Below the pieces are notes generated by a model. That model was given only the letters and a program-made list of their open reading frames with translations, was not told the origin of the DNA and searched no databases. DNA of 27,287 nucleotides from a virus, in IMG/VR virus record IMGVR_UViG_3300008266_012933, positions 1 to 27,287 of that record; one strand, given 5' to 3'. Positions within the stretch are counted from its first letter, which is position 1, and each line of letters begins with the position of its first letter. Shown one piece after another: positions 1,273 through 26,918 of the stretch. The position numbers and the translations under genes were made by a program.

Positions 1273-1509
1273 TTACTTTATAATACCGGCTCTAACTTGC
1301 CAAATTCTCATTTCATCCAACTCTTCTTGAGAACCACCAACAATCATTTCATAGTCGGACATTGTTAATGTTTTACCTGTTTCTGATAGGGAAATTGCTT
1401 TTTCAGCTACATTGTGTAAGTCCATGTCTGTTTGGGCGTCTTCTCTAGCATATTCGAGTAAACGAATAAACAATGGAACGTCTAGTTTGATTGTGTCTTT
1501 TGGGTTCAT
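1273..1509 (-). CDS. Conserved small phage protein ending in RAGIIK
   Basis: 78 aa from the ATG at 1509. That start is preferred over an in-frame ATG at 1560 because it forms the tight TAATATG junction with the upstream stop, while the longer version would overlap the neighbour by 50 bp. It is mostly helical and acidic, opening MNPKDTIKLDVPLFIRLLEY, and resembles small phage proteins of unknown function. The last residues, QVRAGIIK, echo the C-terminus of the 320-aa protein at 4835-5797 (RRAGIIK) and the core of the N-terminal tag of four other proteins here (QMLAGII). It follows a tagged coiled-coil protein, so a head-related role is possible. Confidence 0.75.
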   Translation of the reverse strand: MNPKDTIKLDVPLFIRLLEYAREDAQTDMDLHNVAEKAISLSETGKTLTMSDYEMIVGGSQEELDEMRIWQVRAGIIK

Positions 1510-4557: not shown

Positions 4558-4833
4558 TTAAATATTTTTTGATCTCATATAGGCTTTTTCTAAAGTAGTG
4601 GCTAGGTAAGCAGGATATGCTTCTGAAATTTTAATCAACTCTGATTTTTCTTCTGGGGTGTCAAAGAAACGGTAGAGGTTTCCTTTACCTTCAGCTTCTA
4701 GTTCATCTGCTTTTTCTTGGGTAAATAAACCAACTTGAGAGATCATTTCACCTGCTGTGTAATACAAGTCATTACCTTCAGCTTCATTTAACTTGTTTTC
4801 AGCTAAATATTTTTTTAAATCAAAATTGTCCAT
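4558..4833 (-). CDS. Small unknown protein with FDLKKYLAEN...LNE N-terminus
   Basis: 91 aa. It begins MDNFDLKKYLAENKLNEAEG. This N-terminal module resembles the opening of many uncultured marine-phage proteins and, like the QML-AGII tag, ends in an L-N-E site suited to a T4-type prohead protease. The rest is acidic and helical (GEMISQVGLFTQEKADELEA, then a helical C-terminus), with no enzyme motif. It is separated by 1 nt from the 320-aa gene upstream, and a strong terminator follows. I infer a minor virion or internal head protein, with low certainty. Confidence 0.65.
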   Translation of the reverse strand: MDNFDLKKYLAENKLNEAEGNDLYYTAGEMISQVGLFTQEKADELEAEGKGNLYRFFDTPEEKSELIKISEAYPAYLATTLEKAYMRSKNI

Positions 4834-4834
4834 A

Positions 4835-5797
4835 TTATTTTATAATTCCAGCTCGTCTTAACATTTGATATTTTTCAAAGTCAAATTCTTTTTCTTCTTT
4901 TAATGTTGATTTTTTAACTAAAAGTTTTTGTCTCTGATCTTTTGATATACCTGTTACTACAAGTTTGTATTTTCTACCTTCAGGTGTTTCAACAGATTCT
5001 GTTTCGTATTTTGCTGTTGGAACGTCTCCAATTTCTTTTTGAAACGTTTTACGGATTTTATCTATTTTATCCATATCATCTGCTGTTACAGATAAAGGTG
5101 GAACAGCTTCTGCTTGTGGTTTTTCAACTGTTTTAGGTGCTTCTGTGTCTTGTTCTACATCTACTAGTTTAAATCCAACATCAGCATTGTCCATAATTGT
5201 TTTTAACACTTTAGACAAATATGGTTTTGTTTTATATGGATTTTCTAGTGTAGAAGGAAAAATGATTTTATCGTCTTTTACTACATAATGTACATCTTGT
5301 TCCAATTTACCAGCATATTTTTTCAAATTGTCTGGTGTTTTCATTGGGTAGTAATTTTTTCCGTATGTACCAACTAAACTTTTTGGGAGTGACTTACCTG
5401 AAAGGGTAAATAGGTAGTCGTTTAAGCTACCATCGTTCCCTTCTGCTTGCCATTTTTCATATCCTGCTTCTGCTTCTTTTTCAGTAGCAGCCCATGCTTC
5501 AGGTACTCTATTTTTGATATCTATAATTTTGAATGCCTTTTCATCTTCCGAACGTTCATCCCAGTCTTTCCAAGCAGCTCCTGCTTTTTGTGCAGGAATT
5601 GAAGGACCAAATGCTTTTACAATAGCTTTTGGATCTCGCATGTTTTGTGCGTAGATGCCATAATTTTTAGTATCGTTTAAAGCATCTAAAGCAGCATTTA
5701 AATCATCGGGTTGAACAGCAAGATCGTAACGAACCTTTAATTGGCCCATTCCATCTTCATCCCCCTCAATTTCACGTAAAATATCAGTTAATTTCAT
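4835..5797 (-). CDS. 320-aa unknown protein, candidate virion protein, ends RRAGIIK
   Basis: Not recognised. The N-terminus MKLTDILREIEGDEDG has L-R-E and I-E sites like a processed head protein. Residues about 30-110 resemble a compact alpha/beta domain with a Trp-rich segment (AGAAWKDWDERSEDEKAF). The middle holds YGKNYYPMKTPDNLKKY, then a Pro/Glu/Thr-rich linker (DTEAPKTVEKPQAEAVPP) and a C-terminal domain. The last residues, KYQMLRRAGIIK, resemble the QMLAGII tag of four other proteins and the end of the 1273 protein. A TATA-like stretch (CATATTTATAAT) sits directly before the ATG, close enough that the transcript would be almost leaderless if it is used. Confidence 0.7.
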   Translation of the reverse strand: MKLTDILREIEGDEDGMGQLKVRYDLAVQPDDLNAALDALNDTKNYGIYAQNMRDPKAIVKAFGPSIPAQKAGAAWKDWDERSEDEKAFKIIDIKNRVPEAWAATEKEAEAGYEKWQAEGNDGSLNDYLFTLSGKSLPKSLVGTYGKNYYPMKTPDNLKKYAGKLEQDVHYVVKDDKIIFPSTLENPYKTKPYLSKVLKTIMDNADVGFKLVDVEQDTEAPKTVEKPQAEAVPPLSVTADDMDKIDKIRKTFQKEIGDVPTAKYETESVETPEGRKYKLVVTGISKDQRQKLLVKKSTLKEEKEFDFEKYQMLRRAGIIK

Positions 5798-8304: not shown

Positions 8305-8664
8305 TTAATTGGCTTTATATAATTTACTTTGATATCCTTTTTCTTCTAAAAATGAATTAATTTGTTGAATGTATTCTCCTTCATTAGGTAATTTTTCTCC
8401 AACTTTACCACTTGGAACAAGTTCAACTTCAATAGAAAATTTATTATCTGCAATTTGATGACCTGTTGTATCTAAAGGTTTAAGTCTAGCTACATCTCTA
8501 AATGGGGATTTTACGGGCCCTCCATTAATGAAATTAATAACATCTAAAAGTTCATCAACATCAGATCCTACCATTTCAAGTTTATTTTCATTTAACATGT
8601 TTTTATATTGGCTTTCAGTGATAATACCAGCCAACATTTGCATACGGAGTTGTTCTTGTGTCAT
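8305..8664 (-). CDS. Small protein with capsid-targeting-like tag
   Basis: 119 aa. It begins MTQEQLRMQMLAGIITESQY followed by K-N-M-L-N-E, the shared tag. Removing the tag at I-T-E or M-L-N-E would leave about 92-102 residues with a beta-rich core (HQIADNKFSIEVELVPSGKV) and a helical end (YIQQINSFLEEKGYQSKLY). No enzyme motif is seen. The 16-mer promoter-like motif lies 7 nt before the ATG. The 56-bp gap after it contains a TATA-like run but no clear terminator. I infer an internal head protein delivered with the DNA or a scaffold component. Confidence 0.72.
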   Translation of the reverse strand: MTQEQLRMQMLAGIITESQYKNMLNENKLEMVGSDVDELLDVINFINGGPVKSPFRDVARLKPLDTTGHQIADNKFSIEVELVPSGKVGEKLPNEGEYIQQINSFLEEKGYQSKLYKAN

Positions 8665-8671
8665 TTTATAC

Positions 8672-8687
8672 TTTATTATACATATTA
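8672..8687 (-). promoter_or_regulatory. Late-promoter-like 16-mer, exact copy
   Basis: The minus strand reads TAATATGTATAATAAA, identical at 9822, 13162 and 25779. Its first three bases are the clamp gene's stop codon. The ATG inside it meets a stop after four codons here, so the motif is not conserved as coding sequence. Confidence 0.68.
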
Positions 8688-9419
8688 AAAAGCAGACTCC
8701 TCTTTACGTACCATATAGTACTCACATAAAGTATCTTCTGATTTGAATTCGAGTTTCATCAAACCTTGATAACTCAAATATATAAAACCTTCCTCTAAAT
8801 CTTTATTTTCCTTTAAAATGTTTCGAAGCATATCTGAATTGAATGGTATCTCTACTTTTTCGTTTTTAATTTTACCATACATTTGGTATGTGATTTTGTT
8901 GTTATGGCCTTTTTCATCTCCAAAAGTAAATACACACATGTTATCTCCTTGCATATCTACATCTATAGAAACAGTCATTGAATCAACCCCAGATAAAGCA
9001 TTCTTTGCTTTAACTAAATTGTCAACAAATTCTTTTTCTAAAGGCAAAACTGCATCCCACTCTGGTTCTGCTACGGAACCTACTTTTCCGATCAATAAAG
9101 GATCTGCTAAAGCATATGTTAAGTTAAAGGCACTGTCTGCAAAGTGTAGTTTAGTGTAAACGTTTTTACCTTTTTCTAGATTAAACATTAAATCACCTTG
9201 TGTAATACTTAACAGGTTTAAGAATTTCTTTGTATCAAAGATAGCCAATTCACTGTCCTCTACATCAAAATTTTTATGTACAATTTTACCAATGACTTCT
9301 TTGTTTACAGACATAAAGTCAATGGTAAGTGTTTTGTCTTTGATTTTCCACTTGACGGATTCGTTTTCGCCCAAGTAGTATTTGTTTATAACCGATTGTA
9401 GAACTAATTTATTTACCAT
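8685..9419 (-). CDS. Sliding clamp (gp45-like)
   Basis: 244 aa, close to T4 gp45 (228 aa). It has the two-domain DNA clamp pattern: an N-terminal half with a basic surface (NKYYLGENESVKWKIKDKTL), the FDTKKFLNLLSIT strand-helix element and a KNVYTKL loop, then a second half with ITYQMYGKIKNEKVEIPFNS and a C-terminal strand with CEYYMVRKE. The clamp forms a trimeric ring in T4-type phages and holds polymerase on DNA; in T4 it also activates late transcription with gp33 and gp55. It lies between two tagged late-type genes. Identification rests on fold pattern, length and adjacency to the polymerase gene. Confidence 0.82.
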   Translation of the reverse strand: MVNKLVLQSVINKYYLGENESVKWKIKDKTLTIDFMSVNKEVIGKIVHKNFDVEDSELAIFDTKKFLNLLSITQGDLMFNLEKGKNVYTKLHFADSAFNLTYALADPLLIGKVGSVAEPEWDAVLPLEKEFVDNLVKAKNALSGVDSMTVSIDVDMQGDNMCVFTFGDEKGHNNKITYQMYGKIKNEKVEIPFNSDMLRNILKENKDLEEGFIYLSYQGLMKLEFKSEDTLCEYYMVRKEESAF

Positions 9420-9422
9420 GTG

Positions 9423-9809
9423 TTAAAGATAAGAAAAATCCCATTCTCCTTCATTTTTGTAAGCCCTCAATATTTCATTTGTTACCTCTATTGCATCTTG
9501 TAAATTAAAATTTTCAAAAAAACTAAGACTTTCTGGGTCATTAGAGTCAAGATAAGCAAGATCACCATCGTATGCTTCTGCTTCTATAGCATCTTTAACA
9601 TCTTCAGGGATTTTATATCCTGCTTGAGATAAAAGATTATGAAGGTACTCTAAAAAAAGATCTGTTTCTATATATGGTTCAGCTGGGTCTCCATCATCAT
9701 CAATTTCATCTTTTATAATGTAGTCTCTTTCCTCATTTAACATAGCTTTGTATTGTCCTTCTGTGAGAATACCAGCTAACATTTGCATTCTAAGAGTTTC
9801 TTTATTCAT
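9423..9809 (-). CDS. Acidic small protein with capsid-targeting-like tag
   Basis: 128 aa from the ATG at 9809. The in-frame ATG at 9833 lies inside the promoter-like motif and is rejected. It begins MNKETLRMQMLAGILTEGQY then K-A-M-L-N-E. The body is strongly acidic (DEIDDDGDPAEPYIETDLF, EAEAYDGDLAYLDSNDPES), with a helical C-terminus and no enzyme motif. A cleavable tag plus an acidic body recalls T4 scaffold and internal proteins, though that is inference. The first 14 nt of the coding region and the upstream leader are nearly identical to those of the gene at 12640. Confidence 0.75.
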   Translation of the reverse strand: MNKETLRMQMLAGILTEGQYKAMLNEERDYIIKDEIDDDGDPAEPYIETDLFLEYLHNLLSQAGYKIPEDVKDAIEAEAYDGDLAYLDSNDPESLSFFENFNLQDAIEVTNEILRAYKNEGEWDFSYL

Positions 9810-9837
9810 GTTATTTAGGTTTTTATTATACATATTA
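9795..9837 (-). repeat. 43-bp direct repeat, copy A (promoter plus start of tagged gene)
   Basis: Matches 13135-13177 at 41 of 43 positions. It covers the 16-mer promoter-like motif, the leader CCTAAATAA and the first codons of a tagged gene. The high identity suggests recent duplication, gene conversion or strong selection on promoter and start. Confidence 0.85.
9822..9837 (-). promoter_or_regulatory. Late-promoter-like 16-mer, exact copy
   Basis: TAATATGTATAATAAA on the minus strand, 12 nt ahead of the tagged gene's ATG. Its TAA is the stop codon of the DNA polymerase gene. Confidence 0.68.
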
Positions 9838-12564
9838 TGAAAAGTTAAAAAATTTTGCCTTAAACGGGTTCAAATTTAAAGACCATCCAATATCATTGTA
9901 AACGCCTTCCAATTTGTTTCTGATTACACTATCAAACAATCCATCACGATCAATATATTTGTTGATCAACTCTGTAATTTCAGGTGGGTCATTGTATCCG
10001 TTGTATCCTATAACGTCAATCTGATATGGATTTTGCTTTAAATAAGCAATGTACATTTTATCTCCAATTGTAAATTCAGGGTATTTTACATTAAGTTTCT
10101 TGTAACGTAAAAAGTCATTGTAGATAATAGCTGCTTTAGTGTTGATTGGGCATTTTAATTTCAATTTAGAGAACAATTCACCAGCCATAGGTCTACGCTC
10201 AATATATTCACCCATTTTCTTTAACCCTGTTGGTTTAAGCAACTTGATCCACTCTACAGTTTGCATTGAGTTTTTAAACTCCATTACATCCTTGTCTATA
10301 TCTTCTTTTGGTTTAGAGAACAAAATGTTTTTAATTAAACCCTCTCCAAAGTTTTTAAAGTATGGAGGGAAGTTTGATTTCATAATGTCCAAACCTTTCA
10401 TCTCTAATTCCTCAATTTCAACACCTTCTTTGTTTACAATGTACATTGCGTAACGGCGTTTACCTGACCAATATGCTTTTTCAGCAATTACCTCTTGCTT
10501 TAATACAAAGTGGTGTTTACCAGTCATATTGAACAGATCTTGCGTGATACTGTTTAGATTATTGTTGGCTACTGTTTGAAGCTCCTCTGTTAAGATAAGC
10601 AAACGTTGAATCTTTTCTTCACGATCATTGTAGTCTAGATCAGGATGTCTATGTTTAAGTAAATCTGTTAGCTCTATGTACAGTGAATCTGTATCCGATG
10701 CTATAACAAACTGTCTTAAGTCAATATCTAATTGATCTGAAATGTATTGGTTTACGTAAGCGATAGATTCTTTGGTTAAGCGCTGTCCGCTGTTTGTAAT
10801 AGCTGCAGAGCATATTTTAAATCCATCTGTAAAACGCCATGAGTTAATTGCATATGTACCATATAAAGCGTTTTGTAAGATTTTAAATGCCATTTGGTAC
10901 AAGTCATATAACTTATAGTTTGCCCAATCTTCTGCTTTACCTGCAGTTTTCTTAAGTGCTCGATAGTGTTCTCGTTGATCAAACCAGTCTTCTAGAACCT
11001 CACAAGCAATACTCTTAATGTCAGTTCTATAAAATGCTCCACTAGCAGAAATTGACCACTTATTTTGTTCAATAATTTGGATGAGTTGACCAATAGGAAT
11101 ATTTGCATCTTTTAATTTATAAGTTTTACGATCTAATTTTTGTATATGAATTTTTTCTTCAGGATCACGTTTTTTAAGTTGCTCAAGTGAATTGTATTGC
11201 TCGTAATTGTCTTTTGTAACAATTCTTCCCATTAACGTTTCAACACCCAAATTAAGTGATTTGATAATTGAAGGATATAGCGAGGTAAAGTCCAAGTCAC
11301 TCACATCCGAATACAATCCAGGGATTGGGTCAAGCAAGTAACCACCAGCATATGAATCCTTTTTACGGATCGATTTTGGGAAACGTGAAATATATTTTCC
11401 TGCAAATGTTTTAACTATAATCTCTTTGTCTTCAAAACTATAAACAGTACCCTCAATTGTAGGAGTACCTCGTTGATGTATAACGTGATCACCTAGCTCT
11501 AACTCTCTAATTGTGGGGTTAGTGGTTGTAGGTTTGTTTGGTGCGATTATGTTTTTACGTTTTAAATATGTTAAAATAGCACCTTCATTTAATGCTGTAT
11601 TGTAATAAATTGATTCGTAAGGGGTATGACATAAGTGGGATATCAAAATGGTTAATTCGATAAACTTTTGTTTTTCCTCTAACGCTTCTATAATCTCAAC
11701 ATCTCGAATGTTATAGTCTATAAATTTGATCGGATCTTCTCTAAATAAAGTATCAAGGTTACCATTGTACTCTATTTTACCTAGTTTAGCATATTTTGTT
11801 CCAATATCACCTAACTTATATGATGGTTCTTCTTTCATAATATATTTGCGAAGCAACAACATATAATCTAAGCTGTTAACTAAGCCAATACGAATTGGAG
11901 AATTACCGTTAGATAAATTTTCTTCAATTTTTCCAATTGGGGACAAGCGATATACTTCATCCCCCAAACGCTTTTTAATTCTATAGTACAAGTACGGGAT
12001 ATCAAAGAAATCACTGTTATACCCTACAACAATTGTGGGATCCATCTGTTCCCATTTATTTAAGAATTTACGTAATAAAGTGTTTTCATCAGGACAAGGT
12101 ACAACTACTTTACCATCTTGGTTTATCTCATCAATTTTACCTTCTTTATCTAAGATAAAACATATTTTTTCTTTAGTGGAAGTGTCAATCAAAGCAATAG
12201 CTGTAACTTCAGCATTTGCTTCTCTGATGGTTTGTGGGGTAAGTGCACCTAAAATTTCAATCTCAATATCTAAATAAACTGTATTGTGATAGGAGGGCAT
12301 TTCATCTGTCTTGTAATATAAATCTCTTAAAATTACAAGTTCACGATCTAAATCTTTTTCATAGATTGTAGAGTCTTTTTTGTCGTATTTGCCTTGAAAT
12401 GCGGAACATCTATCTCCAAACAGTGTTTCAAATTCACCTTCATCGTCTAACTTGTAGAGTGTAGGCCAATATTGAAAACAACTAATGCCTTTTTTATCAT
12501 CACGTAGATAATAATGCCATTGATCGTCTCCGGGTAATCTATTGTAGAAAACTGCTTGGTACAT
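9835..12564 (-). CDS. Family-B DNA polymerase (gp43-like)
   Basis: 909 aa, matching T4 gp43 (898 aa). The proofreading 3'-5' exonuclease is present: Exo I YLDIEIE (D99, E101), Exo II VGYNSDFFDIPY (about 180) and Exo III YNIRDVEIIE. Polymerase motifs follow in order: motif A DLDFTSLYPS, motif B KILQNALYGT and motif C ASDTDSLYIEL. The C-terminus ends KAKFFNFS, a hydrophobic tip like the clamp-binding end of gp43. No intein or intron interrupts it. The start has the AAGTTATG context, and a terminator lies 27 bp upstream. Its stop overlaps the promoter motif of the next, tagged gene. Confidence 0.97.
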   Translation of the reverse strand: MYQAVFYNRLPGDDQWHYYLRDDKKGISCFQYWPTLYKLDDEGEFETLFGDRCSAFQGKYDKKDSTIYEKDLDRELVILRDLYYKTDEMPSYHNTVYLDIEIEILGALTPQTIREANAEVTAIALIDTSTKEKICFILDKEGKIDEINQDGKVVVPCPDENTLLRKFLNKWEQMDPTIVVGYNSDFFDIPYLYYRIKKRLGDEVYRLSPIGKIEENLSNGNSPIRIGLVNSLDYMLLLRKYIMKEEPSYKLGDIGTKYAKLGKIEYNGNLDTLFREDPIKFIDYNIRDVEIIEALEEKQKFIELTILISHLCHTPYESIYYNTALNEGAILTYLKRKNIIAPNKPTTTNPTIRELELGDHVIHQRGTPTIEGTVYSFEDKEIIVKTFAGKYISRFPKSIRKKDSYAGGYLLDPIPGLYSDVSDLDFTSLYPSIIKSLNLGVETLMGRIVTKDNYEQYNSLEQLKKRDPEEKIHIQKLDRKTYKLKDANIPIGQLIQIIEQNKWSISASGAFYRTDIKSIACEVLEDWFDQREHYRALKKTAGKAEDWANYKLYDLYQMAFKILQNALYGTYAINSWRFTDGFKICSAAITNSGQRLTKESIAYVNQYISDQLDIDLRQFVIASDTDSLYIELTDLLKHRHPDLDYNDREEKIQRLLILTEELQTVANNNLNSITQDLFNMTGKHHFVLKQEVIAEKAYWSGKRRYAMYIVNKEGVEIEELEMKGLDIMKSNFPPYFKNFGEGLIKNILFSKPKEDIDKDVMEFKNSMQTVEWIKLLKPTGLKKMGEYIERRPMAGELFSKLKLKCPINTKAAIIYNDFLRYKKLNVKYPEFTIGDKMYIAYLKQNPYQIDVIGYNGYNDPPEITELINKYIDRDGLFDSVIRNKLEGVYNDIGWSLNLNPFKAKFFNFS

Positions 12565-12588
12565 AACTTTATTTTAATTAAAGATAAG

Positions 12589-12613
12589 AAAAAGCCTGTC
12601 GGTAGACAAGCTT
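12589..12613 (-). terminator. Intrinsic terminator
   Basis: On the minus strand AAGCTTGTC, TACC loop, GACAGGCTT (12592-12613; nine pairs including one T-G wobble), then TTTTTC. It separates the tagged gene at 12640 from the DNA polymerase gene and uses the same stem family as the terminators at 4531 and 24146. Confidence 0.85.
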
Positions 12614-12639
12614 TTCTATAAGGTTTATTAAAAATTAAA

Positions 12640-13149
12640 TTAAATTTCTTTTGGCTCTCCTTGTAAAGCAGCTGTAAAGAATTCAATTGCTTGTTTAGCT
12701 TCTTCCGGGGTAGCAGATTTTTCATATCCTGCACCTGATGTATATGCTGATGGATCTTTTAGTAAGGAAGTAGAAACTGCTTTAATAATTTCAGGGGCTA
12801 ATTTTTTGGCTAATTCTGCTGCTTTTGCTTTATCCATTTTATTTAGGCTAATTTGGAATTTCTTTTCTTGGGTATTAGCATATGGGTAAAAAATTATATT
12901 CGCTCCAGAAGCTTTATCTCCAAAACCAAATGTATAACCTAGTTGAGGGCCTTTTTCTCCTACATCTGCTTTTGGTCTAAAAGTAATACTAGGATTTTCT
13001 ATTACACTAAGTTCAGCATTATTAAAATAAGGTTTTGCTATTTCCATCCAATTCTGAGGTGGGCCAGCAAGTTCATTTAATTGTGATTTATATTGACTTT
13101 CAGTAATTATTCCAGCCAACATCTGCATACGTAAAGTTTCTTTGTTCAT
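12640..13149 (-). CDS. 169-aa protein with capsid-targeting-like tag
   Basis: It begins MNKETLRMQMLAGIITESQY followed by K-S-Q-L-N-E. The start at 13149 is chosen; the in-frame ATG at 13173 lies in the promoter-like motif. After the tag comes a compact beta-rich domain (GPPQNWMEIAKPYFNNAE, then PSITFRPKADVGEKGPQLGY and ANIIFYPYANTQEKKFQISL) and a helical C-terminal half (AKAAELAKKLAPEIIKAVST). I recognise no family. The second half is Ala/Lys-rich, as in DNA-binding internal proteins. Promoter-like motif 12 nt upstream; terminator 27 bp downstream. Confidence 0.75.
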   Translation of the reverse strand: MNKETLRMQMLAGIITESQYKSQLNELAGPPQNWMEIAKPYFNNAELSVIENPSITFRPKADVGEKGPQLGYTFGFGDKASGANIIFYPYANTQEKKFQISLNKMDKAKAAELAKKLAPEIIKAVSTSLLKDPSAYTSGAGYEKSATPEEAKQAIEFFTAALQGEPKEI

Positions 13150-13177
13150 TTTATTTAGGTTTTTATTATACATATTA
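13135..13177 (-). repeat. 43-bp direct repeat, copy B
   Basis: Second copy of the promoter-leader-start block at 9795-9837, with two mismatches: one inside the coding start and one just before the ATG. Confidence 0.85.
13162..13177 (-). promoter_or_regulatory. Late-promoter-like 16-mer, exact copy
   Basis: TAATATGTATAATAAA on the minus strand, 12 nt ahead of the 169-aa tagged gene. Its TAA is the stop codon of the MazG-like gene. Confidence 0.68.
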
Positions 13178-24193: not shown

Positions 24194-24334
24194 TTATCGT
24201 CCTTGTCCTCTATAGGCTTTATTATAATTTTTAGAATTTTTAGATCTAGAAATTTTAGTTTTAGCATGCACACCAGGCCTTGAAACTTTAACGTCTTTTT
24301 TTGTTTTAAGAGCTTGTTCTTTAATCTTTGCCAT
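24194..24334 (-). CDS. Small basic protein, 46 aa
   Basis: It starts MAKIKEQALKTKKDVKVSRP and ends with a Ser/Lys/Asn-rich run and RGQGR. Extremely basic. The core VSRPGVHAKTK with the final YRGQGR resembles a small conserved protein I associate with T4-like phages of marine hosts; function unknown, probably nucleic-acid binding. The start lies 6 bp after the endolysin stop, and a terminator follows. Confidence 0.65.
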   Translation of the reverse strand: MAKIKEQALKTKKDVKVSRPGVHAKTKISRSKNSKNYNKAYRGQGR

Positions 24335-24340
24335 GACTTG

Positions 24341-25135
24341 TTATTTAATATCAGCTGACTCAATTAATGTGTATGTGAATTTGTTTCCGTTTGTTGCTTT
24401 CGCTTTACGACAAATCGCCATAAATTCTTCAAAATCTGCAGAACGTTTAAACACTTGACATCCTTCTGACCAGTTTTCAACATATGTCGAGTCTGCACCA
24501 GCTTTATGTATGTTGATACCAAATACACCTTCTTGAATTGACTTTTCATCGTATATCATGTCTTTATTTGGATCACGGAATACTTTAACTGGTTTATTTT
24601 GACCTAATGCTTCGTATTTTCCAGCATGTAAACGCATAATGTGAGAATCAATATATTGTCCTTCTACTAGGCGTGCAACACCAGCTTTGTTTCCGTACTG
24701 CATTACACCTTTTGTTCCAGGATCTGTAGTAGCAGGCCAGCAATGGAATTTCTTTTCGCCTCCAACTGTATAGGATAATGTAATGTGATCATCAAATACA
24801 TTTGTTACTTTTTGTCCAGTAGTTGAATTACGAACTCCAATTATGTTTAATACATAATCACCACCTTCAAACCATTTATATCCTTTAGTTTTTACTGCAG
24901 TTTCAACTTGTTCTTTAGTGTATTTAGTAGCTGCTGCAGGTTTAGCTGCTGTTACAATACCCATTTTAGATAATATTGCTTCTGTAACTATACCATCTGC
25001 TGTTAAACCATTTTTAGTTTGCCATGCTTTAACTGCTTCTTCTGTTTTAGGGCCAAAATTCCCTACTTGTTCTACACCTAAAACTGCTTGAACTTTTTTA
25101 ACTGTTTCGTTGTTGTCTCCTCTTTTTAGTACCAT
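24341..25135 (-). CDS. Endolysin-like protein: PG-binding plus YkuD-like domain
   Basis: 264 aa. An N-terminal peptidoglycan-binding domain (PG_binding_1, about residues 3-58: RGDNNETVKKVQAVLG, GNFGPKTEEAVKAWQ), an Ala/Pro/Thr linker, then a catalytic-looking domain with GVFGINIHKAGADS (H210) and WSEGCQVF (S223, C226). A His followed by S-x-G-C is the YkuD/L,D-transpeptidase active-site layout. Related phage endolysins use a WS-x-GCQV motif. It likely cleaves or edits cell-wall peptide links. There is no signal peptide, so export must come from a holin; two holin-like genes sit immediately upstream. Confidence 0.85.
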   Translation of the reverse strand: MVLKRGDNNETVKKVQAVLGVEQVGNFGPKTEEAVKAWQTKNGLTADGIVTEAILSKMGIVTAAKPAAATKYTKEQVETAVKTKGYKWFEGGDYVLNIIGVRNSTTGQKVTNVFDDHITLSYTVGGEKKFHCWPATTDPGTKGVMQYGNKAGVARLVEGQYIDSHIMRLHAGKYEALGQNKPVKVFRDPNKDMIYDEKSIQEGVFGINIHKAGADSTYVENWSEGCQVFKRSADFEEFMAICRKAKATNGNKFTYTLIESADIK

Positions 25136-25137
25136 GA

Positions 25138-25434
25138 TTATCCTAATTCTTCTTCGTTAGTAACTTCTTCTTTTTTTTCTTCTTCTTTTTTTTCTTCTAC
25201 TTGTTTTTTCAATTTAAAAATTCTTCCAGCTGTTGTAATACCAAAAGCACCTAAAGTAAGAATCATAAATCCATCAAAAATGAATTCTTGAATAACTAAT
25301 TCTTTACTCCAAATACCAGTTGCTACATCAACTAGTAATACGAATACCATTGCAAAAAACGATATTACTCCTACAAATGCTTGTTCGTTGATATGATTAT
25401 CATCCGAAATCAATTCTCTAAAAAATTTTCTCAT
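25138..25434 (-). CDS. Holin-like membrane protein
   Basis: 98 aa. Two transmembrane helices (about 19-45, FVGVISFFAMVFVLLVDVAT; about 53-75, GFMILTLGAFGITTAGRIF) and a Lys/Glu-rich C-terminal tail (EKKEEEKKEE), the layout of class II holins. Immediately upstream of the endolysin gene (2 bp apart). Function is inferred from layout and context. Confidence 0.7.
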   Translation of the reverse strand: MRKFFRELISDDNHINEQAFVGVISFFAMVFVLLVDVATGIWSKELVIQEFIFDGFMILTLGAFGITTAGRIFKLKKQVEEKKEEEKKEEVTNEEELG

Positions 25435-25443
25435 AATAATTTA

Positions 25444-25767
25444 TTATTTTATTTCTACATCATCGTTATTATTAGATTGGTTACTTGCAAATTGATAACC
25501 AAACACAACAAGAACAATATTTTTAATTAAATCAAATAAGTCATGCCTCATTTCATCATTCATAAGTTTAACATCCCAACTTATTAGCATATCAACTATA
25601 AAAACACCAAGTAAAGCAGCAAGAATAAGAGCAACATATCTAGTTAACCACTCTCTTTTTTTTAAATATTTAGGAATTTGACTATTGACATACCATACAA
25701 TCCCAGCAATAGTAGCTATAGAAATTAATATACCAACAACCATCATTATCCCACCACTTCCGTACAT
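25444..25767 (-). CDS. Second holin-like small membrane protein
   Basis: 107 aa. Three hydrophobic segments (about 6-26, 44-64, 84-98) with charged loops, and an Asn/Asp tail. It starts the lysis transcript: the exact promoter-like 16-mer lies 11 nt upstream of its ATG. Could be a holin, an antiholin or a lysis regulator. Family not recognised. Confidence 0.65.
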   Translation of the reverse strand: MYGSGGIMMVVGILISIATIAGIVWYVNSQIPKYLKKREWLTRYVALILAALLGVFIVDMLISWDVKLMNDEMRHDLFDLIKNIVLVVFGYQFASNQSNNNDDVEIK

Positions 25768-25778
25768 GACACGTTTTA

Positions 25779-25794
25779 TTTATTATACATATTA
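25779..25794 (-). promoter_or_regulatory. Late-promoter-like 16-mer ahead of the lysis cassette
   Basis: TAATATGTATAATAAA on the minus strand, an exact copy of that ahead of three tagged genes. It is 18 bp after the PAS-protein stop and here overlaps no coding region, the best evidence that the motif is regulatory rather than coding. Confidence 0.72.
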
Positions 25795-25812: not shown

Positions 25813-26918
25813 TTATTTTTTAGTTTCTTGTGTTGCATATTTAATTCCCATAATCGTTCCAACTATTGAAAATGCATTAGTTAACAATACACTGAACATA
25901 TTACTCCAAGTTGATCCAATGATTTGAGTGTCTTGTCCTGTCATAATAGCAGCCCAGTATAATACTGTAGTTACAGCTCCTACTCCAACTATAACAGCTA
26001 ATGCAACCCTAACAATTATTTTTATTAACTCACCTTGACTTTTTTTCATTATTACATCTAAATCATTCAAAGCTGCATTTTTTTCTATCTCTATTGAGTT
26101 TTTAAGTTTTTCAGAGTTATCTAGCTCTATTTGTAAATTTTTAGTAAGATCATCTATTTTTTTCTTGTTGTTTACGGCATCGGTAATATCAGTTGCAATT
26201 TTAACTACATCGGTAATATTGCCTTTACTATCCATTACAGGGTTATAAGATGCTTGTAAGTAACAGTAGATCCATCTACTTTTCTCCTTTCAAATATTCC
26301 ATCAAAGTACTTACCTTTTCTTAAACTTTCCCAAAACTTAGCATACTCATCAGATTTTGAATACTCGTAGCTAACAAAAACACTGTGGTGTTTTCCAATG
26401 ACTTTATCTTTTTCATTGGCTTTGTACCCCATAGTTTCTAAAAATATAGAATTTACATCTGTTATAAACCCATCAATATTAAAACTTATAAGAGCTGTAC
26501 TTCTATCGATTGCTTCTATTTGTTTTTTGCTTTTAATAATTGTAGTAATGTCAGTAGCAACTTTCATTATTTTAGTTATTTTACCACTTTCATCAAAAAT
26601 AGGATTATATGTAGCTTGCAAATTAATTAGACTTCCATCTTTTCTTCTTCTCTCAAATTCTCCAGTATAGTACTTTCCACTTCTTAAGATGTCCCAAAAT
26701 TTTTCATATTCAAGTGATCTTGAATAATCTTCACATACAAAAATACTGTGATGTTTACCAATAAGGTCTTCATGGTTACCTATCCCATACCCCATTGCTT
26801 CTAAAAAGATATCATTAACCCCTAATATAATACCATTAAGGTCAAAGTAAATAAGAGCATTACTTCTATTAATGGCTTCTATCCGACTTAATAGTTCTTC
26901 TTTTGGTAGATTTTTCAT
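25813..26918 (-). pseudogene. Tandem-PAS membrane protein split by a 1-nt frameshift
   Basis: The first frame (26918 down to 26235) encodes two PAS domains of the type in chemoreceptors such as Aer/BdlA: GKHHSIFVCEDYSRS, FERRRKDGSLINLQATYNP, KVATDIT; then a second GKHHSVFVSYEYSKS, FERRKVDGSTV. Here it runs into TYKHLITL and stop. A second frame, from about 26256, continues with LQASYNPVMDSKGNITD, KIATDIT, a coiled coil and two membrane helices (about residues 72-93 and 106-128 of that part). Restoring one nucleotide near 26256 gives one protein of about 365 aa. It lies directly upstream of the holin and endolysin genes. Sensing by PAS plus a membrane domain beside lysis genes is notable. A real loss, a sequencing slip or a programmed shift are all possible. 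Confidence 0.8.

Follow-up and report, generated by a model that had tools for sequence, protein, structure and literature searches.

In bacteriophage T4, the internal head proteins IPI to IPIII and Alt carry a short terminal propeptide, the capsid-targeting sequence (CTS), on otherwise differing bodies, and the S77-family prohead protease gp21 cuts after (I/L)-x-E; T4 is where this cleavage rule and the CTS have been established (PMC9026906). The CTS is known to send proteins into the head, and its binding partner has stayed vague. Here we describe a recurrent terminal peptide, referred to below as the tag, in the 27-kb record of an uncultured virus (IMG/VR record IMGVR_UViG_3300008266_012933), which was analyzed over its full length of 27,287 nucleotides (the window). 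Four proteins of the window begin with this tag, (I/L)xE sites lie next to it, and it resembles the C-terminal tail of the gp22 scaffold of related phages; we consider it likely that it is a capsid-targeting tag imitating that tail.

The tag would share with the T4 CTS a short terminal propeptide on differing bodies, the (I/L)-x-E rule, an S77 protease, and late expression, which is here predicted from promoters. In T4, Alt is cleaved at both of its ends (PMC9026906), as the mixture of N- and C-terminal tags in the phages studied here would need. Unlike the T4 CTS, the tag matches the gp22 C-terminal tail, can stand at the N terminus (its usual place) or at the C terminus, and is found on about a hundred body clusters in one phage group; judged by sequence, the scaffold-tail match, the use at either terminus, and the scale are what appear to be new relative to the CTS-like kind already known. 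The gp22 of a Tequatrovirus lacks the tail seen in this phage group.

Parts of this arrangement recur elsewhere. Encapsulin cargo-loading peptides are short terminal peptides that dock unrelated proteins inside an HK97-fold shell; unlike the tag system described here, encapsulins are not phage heads and have no protease release. Cargo fused to the scaffold protein reportedly enters engineered P22 capsids via the coat-binding part of the scaffold, whereas the arrangement described here seems to be a natural one and comes with a release site. In P1 DarB, the N-terminal capsid-targeting signal, a peptide about 30 residues long, is enough to bring a protein into a phage head (PMC9024508). In herpesviruses, the scaffold C terminus binds the shell protein and is cut near there by the maturation protease, which may be compared with the gp22 tail and its upstream (I/L)xE; no separate family of cargo proteins bearing the scaffold tail is described in those sections of the source on which we draw (PMC12474303).

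A terminal peptide shared by unrelated proteins

The near-identical N-terminal peptide that the earlier note had reported in four proteins of the window is real, and all four lie on the minus strand. Their shared consensus is MxxExLRMQML(A/S)GI(I/L)TE, followed by LNE about 10 residues on, and both sites of the (I/L)-x-E type, I/L-T-E and L-N-E, are found in 4/4 proteins, while the bodies differ, as had also been claimed, and show no mutual resemblance. The shorter starts that the note had chosen for 9423-9809 and 12640-13149 are likelier than the longest open reading frames (ORFs), because the extra N-terminal 'MYNKNLN' codons overlap the promoter TATAATAAA. A plus-strand reading of the four coordinates was rejected, its translations being full of stops. 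Two further proteins of the window end in a version of the tag, namely, 4835-5797 (...EKYQMLRRAGIIK) and 1273-1509 (...MRIWQVRAGIIK).

That proteins of the window share the tag exceeds chance, because it heads at least about 176 distinct ORFs when all loci are pooled, which come from IMG/VR contigs and from an isolate, Flavobacterium phage immuto. When IMG/VR was scanned with a degenerate DNA pattern of the tag, at least 118 stretches matched; in their translations, the tag occurred at least 163 times, mostly among the first 30 residues of the protein and in a few cases internally or C-terminally. The tag codons vary synonymously, both among the window copies and in the wider set (six codons for Leu, four for Ala, four for Thr, and several for Arg), and therefore it is the peptide and not the DNA that appears to be under selection; a DNA-level repeat or recombination sequence was rejected on the same ground, since the variation runs throughout the tag. 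Among 50,697 phage records searched with tblastn (E up to 10), immuto was the only one in which the tag was found, and its gp22 has the tail.

The position of the cut sites is as expected, from sequence, for a removable propeptide, with (I/L)xE between tag and body in either orientation. (I/L)xE follows the tag in 45/45 N-tagged proteins of loci chosen without the tag pattern, against a background of 11% in body windows. In C-tagged sequences, it precedes the tag in 67/73, against a background of 14%. It also precedes the gp22 tail in 63/69 cases, which is little informative because 45% of gp22 windows contain such a site.

Behind the tag, the bodies are highly diverse: 172 tagged proteins fall into about 102 body clusters (BLASTP, 1e-3), although short proteins are possibly over-split. 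Searches of 102 tagged proteins against Pfam and PHROGs gave only scattered single weak matches, and the suggestion in the earlier note that the bodies could include host-takeover or anti-defense factors found no support in them. The structural model of 8308-8664 likewise gave just weak ferredoxin/ACT-like matches (best E, 0.04). The body of the tagged protein of locus L076 had looked by eye like an ADP-ribosyltransferase, and this was dropped for want of support in Pfam or solved structures. In a homologue of window protein 8305-8664 (L040:205-690), the body domain is tandemly duplicated behind a single tag. The bodies of three tagged proteins (L031:5896-6312 and those of L051 and L065) open with a hydrophobic stretch, and in one of them L-P-S-C comes next, resembling the signal of a bacterial lipoprotein; with the tag removed, such a body could be a lipoprotein or membrane protein.

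Likeness of the tag to the gp22 scaffold tail

Immuto and Microcystis phage Mel-JY01 each have, at the place of gp22 between the prohead protease and gp23, a gene whose product ends in SRWQKLAGIIK (immuto gp204) or ERMKKLAGIVK (Mel-JY01). We collected 80 loci by similarity to the capsid protein gp23 alone and scored the gene before gp23 in 77 of them. It ends strictly in LAG[ILV][ILVM] in 49/77 loci, and all 77 fit R[MWF][QKR]x[LI]A on inspection. The gp22 tail of this group can be written as a short helical peptide, (I/L)xE...R(M/W/F)Q(K/M)LAGI(I)K. When an N-tag profile built from other loci was run against the 1,966 ORFs of the gp23 loci, tagged proteins and gp22 tails ranked at the top with scores from 40 to 7, compared with at most 2.4 for reversed sequences. 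Conversely, a gp22-tail profile found tagged proteins at scores of 6.4 to 17.8, compared with at most 6.0 in the reversed control, and the similarity of tag and tail is thus reciprocal, both directions lying above their controls.

A similar ending is present in Rhodothermus phage RM378 (ERIKRLAGL) and in a huge uncultured phage (RMQKLADIS), and it is missing from gp22 of a Tequatrovirus, a Dhakavirus, a cyanophage, Melnitz, and a Campylobacter phage. On this sequence comparison, the gp22 tail appears to be a feature of one broad phage group, and the tags were found only inside that group.

AlphaFold2 places helices at residues 3 to 11 and 17 to 24 of window protein 2, with the I-T-E loop between them and L-N-E and the small alpha/beta body after them (mean predicted local distance difference test [pLDDT] score, 69). 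The gp22 of locus L167 is predicted to be long and helical, and its last helix (residues 410 to 418), which lies after a disordered linker, is the tag-like peptide (mean pLDDT, 68). With moderate confidence, a short helix over R-M-Q-x-L is common to the two models.

Head protease, promoters, and links to the prohead core

The window is a fragment that carries no head genes. The prohead protease on which a capsid-targeting reading depends, an S77 protease (PF03420, Peptidase_S77), is present in the closest long relatives of the window, namely, contigs G047 (166 kb), G003, and G001, whose polB is 90%, 86%, and 83% identical to that of the window, respectively, and which all also encode gp23 and a gp22 with the tail. 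Immuto also encodes an S77 prohead protease, and the protease and gp23 are both present in 5/6 contigs of more than 80 kb that had been chosen only by the tag.

The motif TAATATNTATAATAAA, which resembles a late promoter, occurs exactly five times in the window, before 4/4 N-tagged genes and before a likely lysis cluster, with 0.01 occurrences expected by chance. A shorter motif, AT[AT]TNTATAATA, has 15/16 of its copies in G047 on the sense strand and lies there before tail sheath-, tail tube-, and tape-measure-like genes (our own reading of the sequences) as well as two tagged genes. The enrichment is weaker in other contigs, where TATAATAA precedes 26% of tagged and 5% of other ORFs. The motif suggests that the tagged genes are expressed late.

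One tagged protein is linked to the prohead core through its body. Protein 1511-2239 matches, with a family profile (E, 2e-10; module AINQIPP..K.DYE.AFEHFL), the protein encoded directly upstream of gp21, and a second stretch was matched by a single BLASTP hit (E, 3e-5, in a 64-sequence set). The homology is partial, the lengths being 242 amino acids versus often about 500 to 600, and, by sequence, a core protein appears to have a small relative in 1511-2239. In locus L041, the core protein upstream of gp21 itself starts with the tag-like MKKPINEIERLKLIAGLINE, and tags also adjoin head genes in L162, L192, and L193. Mel-JY01 has, between its prohead protease and gp22 genes, a gene (L004:22429-23595) for a protein whose C-terminal half is by eye ADP-ribosyltransferase-like, as in T4 Alt, with no Pfam support.

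Proposed mechanism and alternative explanations

The capsid-targeting role proposed in the earlier note is strongly supported by the combination of the tag itself, its likeness to the scaffold tail in profile matches, the placement of the cut sites, the S77 protease in relatives, and a promoter shared with tail and other late genes. It is very likely, as far as sequence can tell, that proteins are packaged through the tag; by analogy, we lean slightly toward the more specific idea that the tag mimics the scaffold tail in docking to the shell. During head assembly, the tag would dock at the site of the scaffold tail, most likely the inner face of the gp23 shell, and tagged proteins would thereby be co-assembled into the prohead core. 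The S77 protease of the gp21 type would then cut after (I/L)xE, destroying the scaffold and clipping off the tag, and the freed bodies would be left loose in the head with the DNA, from where they may enter the host at the next infection, unless they serve as core parts. More tentatively, our results lead us to speculate that a large group of mostly uncultured T4-like phages, probably with Bacteroidetes-type hosts, uses one interchangeable, self-removing label at either terminus, derived from or converging on the scaffold tail, to load fast-changing, unrelated proteins for delivery into the host.

Several observations weigh against this picture. Besides the lack of head genes in the window, the late-type promoter motif stands directly before gp23 in 0/77 loci, and therefore the promoter evidence comes from the window and G047, together with the weaker enrichment elsewhere; gp23 may be transcribed by read-through from upstream. 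That the gp22 tail would bind gp23 is proposed by analogy with herpesvirus scaffolds (PMC12474303). The C-tagged examples come mainly from two protein families and are not independent, the confidence of both AlphaFold models is moderate, and a gp22 tail occurs together with no recognizable tagged protein in G030, G031, G032, G035, and Mel-JY01. Finally, within a genome, the tags and the gp22 tail do not covary closely: in G003, gp22 has RFQKLAGII and the tags have LRMQMLAGII, and most genomes mismatch in this way, with one apparent match in G037 (RWQ in both). This leaves a common descent of the two unproven, and tag and tail possibly converge on one docking site; an origin of the tags as simple recent duplicates of the gp22 of each genome is not supported, for the same reason.

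The most probable alternative bears on what becomes of the bodies and does not conflict with a targeting role of the tag. The tagged proteins could, like gp67 and gp68 of T4, be no more than helpers in assembly or remnants of the scaffold core, which would be digested or expelled instead of injected; the partial homology of 1511-2239 to a core protein points in this direction, as do the many small and acidic bodies, several of which have further (I/L)xE sites. We regard this as rather unlikely, since some 102 unrelated body clusters are more variety than an assembly role should need, and most bodies contain (I/L)xE at the background rate only and should survive cutting.

It is less probable still that the tag is recognized by the prohead protease or the scaffold core and not by the gp23 shell, in which case packaging and cutting would be the same and the likeness to gp22 would reflect a shared docking motif. 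The (I/L)xE sites do flank the tag closely, and T4 internal proteins copurify with gp22 and are considered to have an affinity for the core (PMC9026906). However, the T4 protease needs little beyond (I/L)xE (PMC9026906), and protease specificity alone would hence not call for the conserved R-M-Q-x-L-A-G helix; moreover, the modeled position of the gp22 tail at the C terminus, after a disordered linker, would fit a shell-binding tail better than docking to protease or core.

A role unrelated to heads, in which the tag would serve host or replication proteins as a signal for docking or degradation and would resemble gp22 by accident, might be suggested by the position of the tagged genes among polB, clamp, and clamp-loader genes, but it is strongly disfavored and very improbable in view of the reciprocal profile matches over reversed controls, the tagged genes' own late-type promoters in an otherwise non-late region, the tags next to head genes and on a core protein, the co-occurrence of the tag with the protease and gp23, and the fact that immuto, the sole tagged phage among the records searched, has the gp22 tail.

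If the tag acts in capsid targeting as we propose, its match to the scaffold provides a concrete docking hypothesis, with the scaffold tail sitting on the shell, together with a cut rule open to checking in the isolate immuto. Being readable from sequence, the tag provides a way of listing candidate virion-internal and possibly injected proteins of many uncultured phages, with bodies matching no known family, and, if the more speculative reading above is true, injected effectors could be listed straight from metagenomes with the tag as a sequence key. For packaging, too, a terminal peptide active at either end would make a useful tag. Neither the tag strings nor a description of a tag that mimics the scaffold tail was found in the literature searched, a search outside which most subscription papers and preprints lie, and no paper on virion proteomics of immuto was found.

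Other features of the window

Nearly all genes of the window are on the minus strand, and the features discussed here are collected in Table 1. The window encodes a T4-like family-B DNA polymerase (PHROG 262; E, 3e-141), a clamp, a clamp loader, GroEL/GroES, and queuosine-type genes, with the tagged genes located between replication and nucleotide-metabolism genes. This gene content is similar to that of immuto and therefore suggests a Bacteroidetes host.

Table 1. Coordinates of tagged proteins, promoter motifs, and the lysis cluster in the window
Feature	Coordinates	Strand	Remarks
Tagged protein 1, 242 amino acids	1511..2239	minus	N-terminal tag 2156-2239; N terminus from likely start, MTNEQLRMQMLSGIITESEYKAKISLNE; body has two modules in common with the prohead-core protein whose gene lies upstream of gp21 in relatives
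Tagged protein 2, 119 amino acids	8305..8664	minus	Tag 8587-8664; N terminus from likely start, MTQEQLRMQMLAGIITESQYKNMLNE; small alpha/beta body
Tagged protein 3	9423..9809	minus	Tag 9732-9809, L-T-E variant; N terminus from likely start, MNKETLRMQMLAGILTEGQYKAMLNE; C-terminal end unreliable
Tagged protein 4, 169 amino acids	12640..13149	minus	Tag 13072-13149; N terminus from likely start, MNKETLRMQMLAGIITESQYKSQLNE
C-terminally tagged protein, 320 amino acids	4835..5797	minus	Tag LKEEKEFDFEKYQMLRRAGIIK at 4838-4903; starts MKLTDILREIE
C-terminally tagged small protein, 78 amino acids from MNPKDTIKL	1273..1509 (ORF 1273-1560)	minus	Tag ...EELDEMRIWQVRAGIIK at 1276-1326
Protein with second recurrent N-terminal tag	4558..4833	minus	Tag MDNFDLKKYLAENKLNE at 4783-4833; C-terminal end unreliable
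Late-type promoter motif TAATATNTATAATAAA	2251..2266	minus	Before tagged protein 1
Late-type promoter motif	8672..8687	minus	Before tagged protein 2
Late-type promoter motif	9822..9837	minus	Before tagged protein 3
Late-type promoter motif	13162..13177	minus	Before tagged protein 4
Late-type promoter motif, fifth and last exact copy	25779..25794	minus	Before likely lysis cluster
Likely lysis cluster	25444-25767, 25138-25434; 24341-25135	minus	Two membrane proteins; peptidoglycan-binding protein

The N terminus MKLTDILREIE of the C-tagged protein 4835-5797 is conserved, has an L-R-E site, and is like the starts of other proteins encoded near head genes, and both ends of this protein may be propeptides. 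A second N-terminal tag, M..FDLKK(Y/F)LxENKL, was seen in about 20 distinct cases, several of which adjoin head genes and also carry (I/L)xE sites; the version found in the window also stands on proteins adjoining head genes in immuto (L128:17631-18931), L138, and L144, and it may be a parallel capsid-targeting tag.

Compared with the near-identical contig L315 (IMGVR_UViG_3300042691_045324), the window is short of about 44 to 95 bases at each of four places (approximately positions 4599, 6130, 6645, and 9440), and therefore the C termini of 9423-9809 and 4558-4833 are not reliable. The window groEL is in two frames, broken at about 6645, and that of L315 is in one frame; such gaps resemble faults of assembly or variants within the population.

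Elsewhere in the window, a minus-strand protein at 25813-26918 has two PAS sensory domains (PF08447; E, 8e-21), the second of which appears to run on in another frame into 25813-26235, and its gene may be frameshifted. A small basic protein encoded on the minus strand at 24194-24334 contains a strongly conserved motif, VSRPGVHAKxKxSxxKxSKNYxKxYRGQG, which it has in common with immuto gp186 (L128:11063-11200).
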